Shown here: one piece after another, positions 21,691 through 48,657 of the stretch | Position numbering within the stretch: position 1 is the stretch's first letter | Layout of the letters: every line of letters begins with the position of its first letter | From: Pseudomonadota bacterium | GTDB lineage: Bacteria > Pseudomonadota > Alphaproteobacteria > Acetobacterales > Acetobacteraceae | NCBI GenBank assembly: GCA_021818505.1 | Contig: JAKADX010000004.1 | Location: 62,001-126,000 of the forward strand | Reading direction: 5' to 3' | DNA: 64,000 bases | Program-made: the position numbers and the translations under genes | The notes under the pieces: model-generated | Database searches by the model: none | Seen by the model: the letters and a program-made list of their open reading frames with translations, nothing else | Told to the model about the DNA's origin: nothing

Positions 21691-21750
21691 GCGCAGGGCC
21701 GCCGTGAGGCGGCGGGCGTTGACAGCGCGGCGGCGGCGGCACACCCTCCG

Positions 21751-24580
<2,830 letters not shown>

Positions 24581-45302: not shown

Positions 45303-45578
45303 GGTGGTCCCTCCCGGCTCTTGATGTTTGACGGCGGTTTCAGCCTCGCAGCGGCGAGGCGCAGCCGTCAATAGAGGTGGTCGCAGGGCGGCCCGCGCAC
45401 GACCCGGTCCCGGCAGTCGATGGCGAGGGGTGCGCCCCTGTCATCGGCCTGTCGCAATCCCCTTGATTGCCGGAGCCGGAAAGGTATATCCGGCTTCCTG
45501 GTGCTGCACGCGGGTCCGTCAGGGCGTCGCGTGTCCCACCCCGGCAGCCGCCGGTTCGCAACCGTATCAAGGGATCAC

Positions 45579-45710
45579 ATGAACCCGCGATCTAGCAGCC
45601 AACCCTCGGAGAGCCATAGTCGGCGCATCGCCGACGTGACCTCGCCGGCGGGTTGGATCATCGCCCGGGACGTGCATGTGACCGTACGGGGATCGGCGCC
45701 GACGCGTTGA
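45579..45710 (+). CDS. Possible small ORF (43 aa) in the Nramp-like leader
   Basis: MNPRSSSQPSESHSRRIADVTSPAGWIIARDVHVTVRGSAPTR; AAGGGA SD-like; weak evidence. Confidence 0.25.
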   Translation: MNPRSSSQPSESHSRRIADVTSPAGWIIARDVHVTVRGSAPTR

Positions 45711-45771
45711 TCCCCTAGCGGCCCGAGCGCCCCGGGTTCGAGCAACCGCTTGAGCCAAGAGGAGGCGCCAG

Positions 45772-45918
45772 ATGGCCGCTCTTCGGACGTTTCGCGATGA
45801 TCTGGGCAACGGCCCGGCCGCCCGCCTGTCTGCCCACTGGGGGCATGATGCAGGCGGGCGGCTCGTCTGCCGTTGGTCCTTCGACCTCCGTACCTCCGAC
45901 GACGATCCGCTCGGTTGA
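45772..45918 (+). CDS. Small ORF, 48 aa, candidate leader peptide upstream of the Nramp-like gene
   Basis: AAGAGGAGG SD (45757-45765), 6-nt spacer, ATG; MAALRTFRDDLGNGPAARLSAHWGHDAGGRLVCRWSFDLRTSDDDPLG*. Too short for the supplied ORF track. Confidence 0.6.
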   Translation: MAALRTFRDDLGNGPAARLSAHWGHDAGGRLVCRWSFDLRTSDDDPLG

Positions 45919-45921
45919 CGC

Positions 45922-45955
45922 GGTGCGGCGCCCGCGTGCGGGTGCCGCACCTTTT
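45922..45955 (+). terminator. Rho-independent terminator-like hairpin
   Basis: GGTGCGGCGCCCGC-gt-GCGGGTGCCGCACC followed by TTTT; starts 4 nt after the sORF stop codon. Confidence 0.7.
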
Positions 45956-46015
45956 GTCTGATCGAACGGGACGAAGCCGGACACCGCCCCGGTGCCGACG
46001 CAGGAGGACGGAACA

Positions 46016-47635
46016 ATGAGCTTCAGTGAGGCGACCCTGAGCAACGAGAGCGCCGTGCTCGACACGGCGCATGTCGGGGATATCGAGGGTGCCTTCGGCA
46101 CCATCCGCCAGCATGATATCGGTGCGCGCGCGACCTGGCGGCAGCGGCTTGCCACCCTGCTCGCGATCATCGGGCCGGGGCTGATCGTCATGGTCGGCGA
46201 CAACGACGCCGGTGCCTTCGCGACCTACACGCAAGCCGGTCAGATGTACGGCACGGCCCTGCTATGGACTCTGCTGCTGCTGGTGCCCGTGCTGTACGTG
46301 AATCAGGAAATGGTGCTGCGCCTCGGCGCAGTCACCGGCGTGGGCCACGCGCGGCTGATCCTGGAGCGGTTCGGACGGTTCTGGGGCGCGTTCAGCGTCA
46401 TCGACCTGTTCCTGCTGAATGCGCTGACCATCGTCACCGAGTTCATCGGGATCAGCCTTGCCCTCGACTATCTCGGCGTCTCCAAACTCGCGGGCGTCGG
46501 CACCGCGGCGGCGCTGACCGTGATCGCCGCGAGCACCGGCAACTTTCGCCGGTTCGAGCGGTTCGCCATCACGCTCTGCCTGGGCAGCCTGCTGCTCGTG
46601 CCGGTGTTCCTCGCGGCGCATCCGCCACTCGGTGCGCTCGCGCGCGATTTCGTATTGCCGCAATGGCCGACGGGGAAGCTCTCGGACGTTCTGCTCCTGG
46701 TGATCGGGATCGTCGGGACTACGGTCGCACCGTGGCAGTTGTTCTTCCAGCAGAGCTATGTGATCGACAAGCGCATCACGCCACGATTCATCGCCTATGA
46801 GCGTGCCGATCTGTGGATCGGCATCGTCGTCGTCGTGCTTGGTGCCGGGGCGATGATGGCATTTTGTGCCGCCGCGTTTTCGGGCACCGCGGATTTCGGG
46901 CAGTTCACCGACGCTGGCGGCGTCGCGGCAGGCCTCGGCAAGTACGTGGGCCGCAGCACCGGCGTGCTGTTTGCCCTCGCGCTGATCGACGCGAGCGTGA
47001 TCGGCGCCGCCGCGGTGTCGCTCTCCACGGCCTATGCGATCGGTGATGTACTGTCACTGCGCCATTCGCTCCATCGCACGCCGCGCGAGGCGATCGGTTT
47101 CCATGCTGTCTATGCCGGGCTGGTGGTGCTGGCGGCCGTCCTGGTGCTGATTCCCGGCTCGCCGCTCGGCCTGATCACCGAGGCGGTGCAGACGCTGGCG
47201 GGCGTACTGCTGCCGAGCGCCACGGTGTTCCTGCTGCTGTTGTGCAATGACCGCGACGTGCTCGGCCCGTGGGCGAACGGACGTTGGCTCAACCTGTTCA
47301 CTGGCGCGGTGATCGCCGTTCTCGTCGTGCTGTCGGTGGTACTCACCGCTTCGGTGCTGTTTCCAGATCTGCCGGGGGTCGCAATCCTGTGGATCCTCGG
47401 CCTCGGCGGCATCGTGACACTGGCCGCCGGCGCTCTCTCGATCCGCCGGCGCAGCGAGGCCGCCGGGCCGTCGCTCGATCGCAAGGTGTGGCGCATGGCG
47501 CCCCTGGACCGCCTGCCGCCGTTGCTGCTGTCGGTCACGGCGCGGCGGTGGATGCTGGTGCTGCGGCTTTATCTGGTCGGCGCCTGCGCCCTGGTGGTGG
47601 TGCGGGTCGTGCAACTGGCCCTGGGGCAGGGTTGA
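46016..47635 (+). CDS. Nramp-family/Nramp-related divalent metal transporter (atypical motifs)
   Basis: GPGLIVMVGDNDAGAFATYTQAGQMYG; GIVGTTVAPWQLFFQQSYVIDK; about 11 TM; GGAGG SD. Confidence 0.9.
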   Translation: MSFSEATLSNESAVLDTAHVGDIEGAFGTIRQHDIGARATWRQRLATLLAIIGPGLIVMVGDNDAGAFATYTQAGQMYGTALLWTLLLLVPVLYVNQEMVLRLGAVTGVGHARLILERFGRFWGAFSVIDLFLLNALTIVTEFIGISLALDYLGVSKLAGVGTAAALTVIAASTGNFRRFERFAITLCLGSLLLVPVFLAAHPPLGALARDFVLPQWPTGKLSDVLLLVIGIVGTTVAPWQLFFQQSYVIDKRITPRFIAYERADLWIGIVVVVLGAGAMMAFCAAAFSGTADFGQFTDAGGVAAGLGKYVGRSTGVLFALALIDASVIGAAAVSLSTAYAIGDVLSLRHSLHRTPREAIGFHAVYAGLVVLAAVLVLIPGSPLGLITEAVQTLAGVLLPSATVFLLLLCNDRDVLGPWANGRWLNLFTGAVIAVLVVLSVVLTASVLFPDLPGVAILWILGLGGIVTLAAGALSIRRRSEAAGPSLDRKVWRMAPLDRLPPLLLSVTARRWMLVLRLYLVGACALVVVRVVQLALGQG

Positions 47636-47802: not shown

Positions 47803-47865
47803 GGCGATAGCTGGCGCATTGCTCCCGGCCTTCCTATGTTCGCCGCGCATTTCCGGAGCACGCGC

Positions 47866-48657
47866 ATGCATCTGCGCCCAATGGCGGCGGCTGCCCTTTT
47901 CCTTGTCCTGATCGGCGCGGCCGAGCCGGCGCGCGCGACCGACCTCGCGGCGCACCGCGCGGTTTACAGCCTGCGCCTCGAGTCCGCTCATGGCGGGGAT
48001 GTGCAGGCCGCCACCGGGACCATGGCTTATGAGGTGCAGGACGCCTGCGACGGCTGGGCGGTGCGCCAGCGGCTGCAGATGACCATCACCAACCGCGACG
48101 GTCAGGACATCGACATGATTTCTGACTATACGACCTGGGAGAGCAAGGATGGGCTAAAGCTGCGTTTCCGCACGCGCCAGACCACCGATCAGGCGGTGAC
48201 CAGCGATATCGCCGGCGAGGCCGCGCTGACCGCCCCCGGTGGGCTGGGTAGCGCGCATTTCACCAGCCCAGAGGACACCACCAAGCCGCTGCCGGCCGGC
48301 ACGCTGTTCCCGATGAAGCACACCGAGGCGCTGCTCGCCGCCGCCGAGGCGGGGAAGAAGTTCCTGGAGCTGCCGCTGTTCGACGGAACCTCGGCCAGCG
48401 GCGCGCAGGACAGCTCGATCGTCGTTACCCGATGGGGCGGACCTCGCCCCGATAAATGGGGCCCGCTGGCCCAATTGCCGAGCGGCCGGTTCCGCATCGC
48501 GTTCTTCGATCGAGGGCCGGCGAGCATGGAGCCGGATTACGAAGTCTCGATGCGGTATTGGTCGAACGGTGTCGCCGACGATCTCAGCATGGACTTTGGC
48601 GATTTCGTCATGGCCGGCAAACTGGCGGAATTCCACCTGCTCAAGCCGCACTGCTGA
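47866..48657 (+). CDS. DUF1849/EipB-family cell-envelope protein
   Basis: Signal peptide; LAAHRAVYSLRLESAHGGDVQAATGTMAYEVQDACDGWAVRQRL. Confidence 0.88.
   Translation: MHLRPMAAAALFLVLIGAAEPARATDLAAHRAVYSLRLESAHGGDVQAATGTMAYEVQDACDGWAVRQRLQMTITNRDGQDIDMISDYTTWESKDGLKLRFRTRQTTDQAVTSDIAGEAALTAPGGLGSAHFTSPEDTTKPLPAGTLFPMKHTEALLAAAEAGKKFLELPLFDGTSASGAQDSSIVVTRWGGPRPDKWGPLAQLPSGRFRIAFFDRGPASMEPDYEVSMRYWSNGVADDLSMDFGDFVMAGKLAEFHLLKPHC

Follow-up and report, generated by a model that had tools for sequence, protein, structure and literature searches.

The region upstream of an Nramp-family transporter gene in the window (the whole stretch of 64,000 nt that was analysed) carries a conserved RNA switch, which we consider rather likely to be a translational attenuator and a new variant of the logic of mgtQ and mgtL. 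As judged from the conservation of its sequence among relatives, the element is the stretch 45579-45771, just 5' of a feature described in an earlier note on this DNA. What results is a defined, covariation-supported candidate attenuator whose leader ORF is named and which point mutations can test. The gene that it precedes, and the SD of that gene, are as follows.

46016-47635, + strand: NRMT-like Nramp-family transporter gene, 539 aa, a probable Mg2+ importer.
46002-46007, + strand: SD of the transporter gene, with a predicted pairing to codons of ORF2 that lie about 30 nt short of its end, inconsistently so in relatives.

The transporter matched Pfam Nramp (8.7e-77), and its best solved relative was EleNRMT (7qia, 4.7e-46), a Mg2+ transporter (PMC8806188). 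The metal site of NRMT proteins is DxxG-TxxA/T, with the Met replaced by Ala (PMC8806188). The site in the window, DAGA / TTVAPW, has three of the four NRMT positions. Compared with EleNRMT, the helix-6 TxxA site is kept (GTTVAPW) with the change of Met to Ala, whereas the helix-1 motif is D-A-G-A and not the D-x-x-G of NRMT transporters (PMC8806188). M-box Mg2+ riboswitches were found 5' of transporter orthologues in five actinobacterial loci. NrmT was identified by way of an M-box upstream of its gene (PMC4072509), the reasoning applied here to the M-boxes of the orthologues; these, with the likeness to EleNRMT, make Mg2+ the likely signal. On this sequence evidence the transporter is probably an NRMT-like Mg2+ importer. 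A gene for an EipB-like periplasmic protein lies 3' of it (47836-48657), and a TPP riboswitch is found elsewhere in the window (21750-21877).

Upstream regions were compared for 15 transporter orthologues first and then for 80 further loci from named genomes, and the strongest conservation in them lay 5' of the coordinates given in the earlier note. The stretch from the ORF1 start to the ORF2 start was aligned for 24 loci. Its folding z had a mean of -3.3, with 20 of 23 loci below -2, and a covariance model built on it found one match in its own genome (E 7e-54; next 0.01). Among 385 genomes sampled from the class, 6 contained a DNA pattern of the ORF1 start (reversed control, 0). Of the four new pattern loci, three precede the same transporter; the fourth lies where its contig ends. 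The switch adjoins an NRMT gene wherever this can be checked. Rhizobium (L093), Dyella (L100) and Sphingobium (L092) loci, which are scattered on the transporter tree, each carry an NRMT gene with the full leader cassette. This scatter suggests that the two have moved horizontally as a unit.

The 5' part of the locus contains a promoter and the first ORF of the leader.

45463-45490, + strand: predicted sigma70-type promoter TTGATT-16-TATATC, 5' of ORF1.
45569-45574, + strand: SD of ORF1 (AAGGGA), which is AAGGGA, AAGGAC or AGAGGA at equal spacing in nearly all relatives.
45579-45710, + strand: ORF1, 43 codons, leader peptide MNPRSSSQPSESHSRRIADVTSPAGWIIARDVHVTVRGSAPTR, with a conserved frame and a start motif common to several phyla.
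45618-45620, + strand: conserved Ser codon AGT, codon 14 of ORF1.

ORF1 begins MNPRSSSQPSESHSRR, preceded by its SD, and the ATG was invariant across the 24-sequence alignment. In all 28 loci compared, the frame stayed open over 36-46 codons. The ORF1 stop lay 60.8 +/- 7.7 nt 5' of the ORF2 start (28 loci), though the sequence there varies. The pN/pS of ORF1 fell only moderately short of 1, and for L031-L037 it exceeded 1. Codon 14 was AGT in 25 of the 28 loci, whereas AGT makes up 4% of the Ser codons in the transporter genes of the window's group. An out-of-frame stop, the TAG contained in NNT AGT, was considered as a conserved leader signal and dropped, being absent from L034, L036, L077 and L117.

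Six features of the RNA, within ORF1 and after it, make up the proposed switch.

45584-45591, + strand: region 1, CCCGCGAT, codons 2-5 of ORF1, able to pair with region 2.
45599-45656, + strand: stem H1, CCAACCC (45599-45605) with GGGTTGG (45650-45656), enclosing hairpin H2 (45619-45635).
45660-45669, + strand: region 2, ATCGCCCGGG, codons 28-31 of ORF1, the putative anti-anti-SD, in an RNAalifold helix with region 3.
45727-45737, + strand: region 3, GCGCCCCGGGT, located past the stop of ORF1, the putative anti-SD and partner of region 2, with covariation.
45735-45756, + strand: inner hairpin of 3:4, GGTTCGAGC-AACC-GCTTGAGCC, with 80% of cells paired and double changes in 4 of 9 pairs.
45760-45771, + strand: SD of ORF2 (AGGAGG) and spacer, which region 3 would hide in the OFF state.

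RNAalifold returned, unprompted, a long-range helix of GCCCGGG (45663-45669, in ORF1) with CCCGGGT (45731-45737). This 2:3 helix was paired in 94% of cells and showed double changes in four of its seven pairs, and its pairs 45665:45735 and 45667:45733 ranked 20th and 57th for covariation among 22,224 column pairs. On the transporter tree there were at least five independent compensatory double changes. Such changes occurred in L034/L035/L036 (GCTCGGG:CCCGAGC), in L147 as against its sister L148, in L100 as against its sister L096, in L044, and in L077/L117/L152, a Magnetospirillum-like group. In L041 (GCCTGGG:CCCAGGT) the change is a missense one in ORF1 (CGG to TGG, Arg to Trp) and yet the pair is kept, which argues that the GCCCGGG part is held for RNA pairing. 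Stem H1 also covaries, with 85% of cells paired and double changes in five of seven pairs. Regions 1 and 2 were paired in 80% of cells, versus 29-47% when slid, and this pairing is without covariation because its columns hardly vary.

The hairpin at 45727-45768 joins the 3' strand of the 2:3 helix to the SD of ORF2. Both of its parts covary: the inner stem, and the SD helix, in which 76% of cells were paired and covarying extensions reach the spacer. Percent paired, double-change cells and score of 3:4 all exceeded 500 of 500 shuffles, controls that ignore relatedness. At equilibrium the SD of ORF2 was computed to be paired with upstream bases with P ~0.8. The 2:3 helix and the 3:4 hairpin overlap and are mutually exclusive; comparison of the loci demonstrates, at the level of sequence, the conserved ORF1, the two covarying pairings with their overlap, and the sequestration of the SD. 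Of the elements of a trp-type attenuator, the leader ORF with mutually exclusive stems is found here as ORF1 with 2:3 versus 3:4, both covarying; an intrinsic terminator in the place of the 3:4 stem is not, the conserved 3:4 being a structure that conceals an SD and lacks a U-tract. In L035 and L044 ORF2 is absent and the rest of the switch is kept, the conserved SD and an ATG starting the transporter itself. The switch would therefore act on the reading frame that comes next after the SD, which is ORF2 in most loci and the transporter in L035 and L044.

We propose four regions as in classical attenuators, with 1 and 2 inside ORF1, 3 after its stop, and 4 consisting of GCTTGAGCC..AGGAGG. Transcription from the promoter at about 45463-45490 would give an mRNA with ORF1 as its first ORF. 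In the OFF state, normal translation of ORF1 would cover region 2 with ribosomes, region 3 would fold on region 4, and the SD would be hidden. The ON state would arise when a ribosome stalled on the early part of ORF1 or dropped off there: this would break 1:2 and leave region 2 free, whereupon 2:3 would form, 3:4 would be prevented and the SD would be exposed. We infer that the behaviour of the ribosome on ORF1 selects the state, with low Mg2+ as the presumed signal. ORF2 would be a relay ORF before the transporter, to which its translation may be coupled; where ORF2 is missing, the SD of the transporter would itself be the target. When a ribosome was modelled early on ORF1, the mean P(2:3) went up from 0.04 to 0.22, and the value for the window from 0.15 to 0.50-0.56; with the ribosome on region 2, P(2:3) was 0. 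The openness of the SD at equilibrium was nearly unchanged between modelled ribosome positions (0.12 vs 0.10, p = 0.27), and a real switch would therefore be kinetic, during transcription. Equilibrium folding was discarded as a proof that switching takes place, since it shifts P(2:3) in the predicted way but not SD openness. Points against the attenuator model are also the pN/pS values of ORF1, the missing covariation of 1:2, the Asn at position 2 of ORF1 in the window and the uneven coupling of ORF2 to the transporter among relatives. A further difficulty is the position of a ribosome that has reached the stop of ORF1, which would be close to region 3.

The covariation of H1, and the nucleotide-level conservation of the AGT codons and of the internal loop CUAGCAG, could also be read as signs of a riboswitch, in which H1/H2 and the loop would bind a ligand or Mg2+ and ORF1 would merely overlap the aptamer. 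We regard this as unlikely. ORF1 retains its SD, its start codon, its reading frame and the spacing of its stop in all 28 loci, and in other phyla, too, the start motif belongs to an ORF that has an SD. Both speak against an aptamer, as does the lack of a credible Rfam match: searches of the leader region gave none at the gathering score, M-box included, and a lax search (E up to 5) returned implausible families only, all far below their cut-offs.

Three further features lie downstream of the conserved element.

45772-45918, + strand: ORF2, 48 codons, the ORF of the earlier note, a relay ORF or small peptide with the motif W..GRLVCRW-x-DDP.
45817-45862, + strand: 12-bp stem inside ORF2 from the earlier note, beyond chance here, in an ORF without conserved structure.
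45922-45959, + strand: hairpin after ORF2 with a TTTT tail, from a terminator scan, a possible genome-specific terminator.

In the earlier note ORF2 was itself the leader peptide: its DDDP would destabilise ribosomes at low Mg2+, and transcription of the transporter would depend on a competition between stems in ORF2 and an intrinsic terminator (45922-45955). The features on which this was built were all located as described, namely the ORF at 45772-45918 with its SD AAGAGGAGG (45757-45765) and peptide end SDDDPLG, the stem GCCGCCCGCCTG (45817-45828) with CAGGCGGGCGGC (45851-45862), the hairpin at 45922-45951 followed by TTTTGTCT, and GCGGGCG (45854-45860) opposite CGCCCGC (45929-45935). The stems and hairpin are real and unusual. 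None of 300 dinucleotide shuffles contained a perfect 12-bp stem (mean longest 6.9), and when the window was cut into 246 equal tiles, 2 of them did; the 281-nt region 45740-46020 had a folding z of -4.7. The acidic-Pro ending also recurs: D/E-P stood in the last 15 residues of 11 of 26 ORF2 peptides (shuffled mean 2.5, 0 of 5000 shuffles), rows which are related and make up roughly 8 lineages. The SD of the transporter in the window is, in addition, predicted to pair with late ORF2 codons. Against this model, the U-tract of the supposed terminator was present in 0 of 22 relatives, two loci have no ORF2, and the body of ORF2 had a mean folding z of only -0.5 (23 loci; 5 of 23 below -2), so that its stems 1:2, 2:3 and 3:4 do not form a conserved switch; for the gap between ORF2 and the transporter the mean was -1.3 (23 loci). 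We hold it to be improbable as the main mechanism, and it could act as a second, genome-specific layer. The principle of the earlier proposal is supported, namely that a short ORF and mutually exclusive stems couple the control of a metal transporter to translation. Most of the parts named for it are not: the conserved leader is ORF1 (45579-45710), ORF2 is the regulated target, and the switch had been placed about 100-200 bases too far downstream.

Matches to the short ORF were found in other genera of the family (G003, G021, G002, G001, G030 and G016), 100-250 nt 5' of Nramp orthologues that had been found independently on the same contigs. The ORF is therefore kept in related genera, but its stems are not conserved. 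The peptide of ORF2 changes fast; it carries W..GRL.C.W and in many cases ends in acidic-Pro, and the pN/pS of ORF2 was 0.3-0.7 in close pairs. Coupling of the transporter SD to the end of ORF2 was rejected as a general rule, being predicted in the window, L034, L042 and L148 and inconsistent otherwise. In Rhizobiales loci L061, L088 and L099 the order is swapped, an ORF for an ORF2-like W..GRL.C.W peptide preceding a leader ORF of the LNDGPSRP type.

No promoter was found within 45956-46016; the conserved one lies 5', at 45463-45490. In about half of the loci TTGAYC-16-TATAT occurs 92-130 nt 5' of ORF1, and in relatives this promoter embeds a CsoR/RcnR/FrmR-type dyad (for example TATCCCCCAGGGGGGTATA) that is degenerate in the window. 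The dyad-bearing promoter position was also seen in L092, L096, L148, L150, L040 and L043. A divergent PF02583 (Trns_repr_metal) gene is present in 8 of 29 loci; none adjoins the locus in the window, the single copy of that genome being on another contig. These dyads and divergent genes, with the peptide motif W..GRL.C.W kept by ORF2, would fit a scheme in which a CsoR/RcnR-family repressor at the dyad controls transcription, ORF1 and ORF2 code for small proteins with functions of their own and the SD hairpin just tunes translation in the ordinary way, but the degenerate dyad and distant repressor gene of the window's genome, and the covarying 2:3 helix that it leaves unexplained, make it very improbable.

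The proposed attenuator resembles known Mg2+ leaders to different degrees. In the Salmonella mgtCBRU operon, mgtQ has 1:2/3:4 versus 2:3 stems with the RBS hidden in 3:4; it is 8 codons long, has Asp2/Glu5 and is flanked by structural genes on both sides (PMC8092293). As with mgtQ (PMC8092293), a short ORF precedes a Mg2+ transporter and, as proposed here, failure of the ribosome on that ORF would favour downstream translation; the mgtQ/mgtL-type arrangement of a short ORF 5' of an inferred Mg2+ transporter, with alternative stems hiding an RBS, is thus found. Unlike mgtQ, ORF1 has 43 codons, heads the transcript, is without early acidic residues in the window and would control an intervening ORF2. 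The two are likened by logic alone and not by sequence relation. The peptide of the window starts MNPRSSSQPSE, with Asn at position 2 in place of the early acidic residues of MgtL and MgtQ; acidic leader starts were found in other lineages only (MDEGPSCP, MDPSSSRP, MEPGSSCL). The MgtL peptide starts M-E-P-D-P-T, to which the M-[DE]-x-G-P-S of Bradyrhizobium and Polaromonas leaders may be likened, and AGT-coded Ser is a feature of the leaders here and not a described MgtL feature. MgtL, the leader of mgtA, carries an EPDP motif and acts through intrinsic ribosome destabilisation (PMC11282234). Like MgtL, the leader peptide here precedes a probable Mg2+ importer; unlike MgtL, which acts on Rho-dependent termination, it would act by SD sequestration. 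In M. tuberculosis pe20, an M-box (ykoK) Mg2+ riboswitch occurs with a uORF (PMC12810186). The present system shares with it (PMC12810186) the connection with Mg2+ genes and an SD / anti-SD / anti-anti-SD platform on a small upstream ORF, but there is no M-box in the window and the putative anti-anti-SD lies inside the leader ORF, not at an aptamer. Literature searches found no NRMT or Nramp leader peptide, and no description of the regulation of NRMT-class Mg2+ importers in Proteobacteria was found in the literature searched. With the attenuator, a further transporter family and further bacterial classes would come under leader-peptide sensing as known from mgtQ and mgtL.

The ORF1 start motif was searched for as M[NDE]xGxS(AGT)[RCS]P in 66 loci not used to define it. 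Upstream of NRMT genes it occurred with an SD in 21 of these 66 held-out loci (reverse strand, 0; downstream, 3), a set not fully blind, as some sequences had been seen before the motif was written down. The lineages were Rhizobiales (LNDGPSRP, and MDEGPSCP in Bradyrhizobium), Pseudomonas (MDPSSSRP), Burkholderia (MNDSDSCP) and Actinobacteria (MNPGHSCP, MKPGDSCP, MEPGSSCL and MDGSCSSP, two of them after an M-box). All 21 matches used AGT for the Ser of the motif, a codon that makes up 5% of Ser codons in the transporter genes of these loci. Rhizobiales leaders have a covarying stem immediately after the motif, much as H1 comes after codons 6-7 in the group of the window. It is possible, and we suggest it only tentatively, that the leader family start-[NDEK]-x-[GSRC]-x-Ser(AGT)-[RCS]-P, found in Actinobacteria and in Alpha-, Beta- and Gammaproteobacteria, serves NRMT transporters widely as a sensor of Mg2+ that works through translation. 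What happens to the ribosome at the AGT beside the abutting stem would read cellular Mg2+, and in Actinobacteria the leader would be a second sensor after the M-box. An AGT-containing leader motif common to several phyla makes such reading of Mg2+ by the ribosome on a short peptide testable. In ten Rhizobiales loci (L074, L082, L083, L088, L090, L091, L099, L103, L113 and L133) the leader start CGACGGCCCUAGUCG could form a small AGT-containing hairpin. NRMT loci of the Burkholderia group (L086, L110, L120 and L128) have a conserved upstream stretch, CCTTGGACAnyTGCAGTAGTCGACCTTCG, which is possibly a further variant of the leader.
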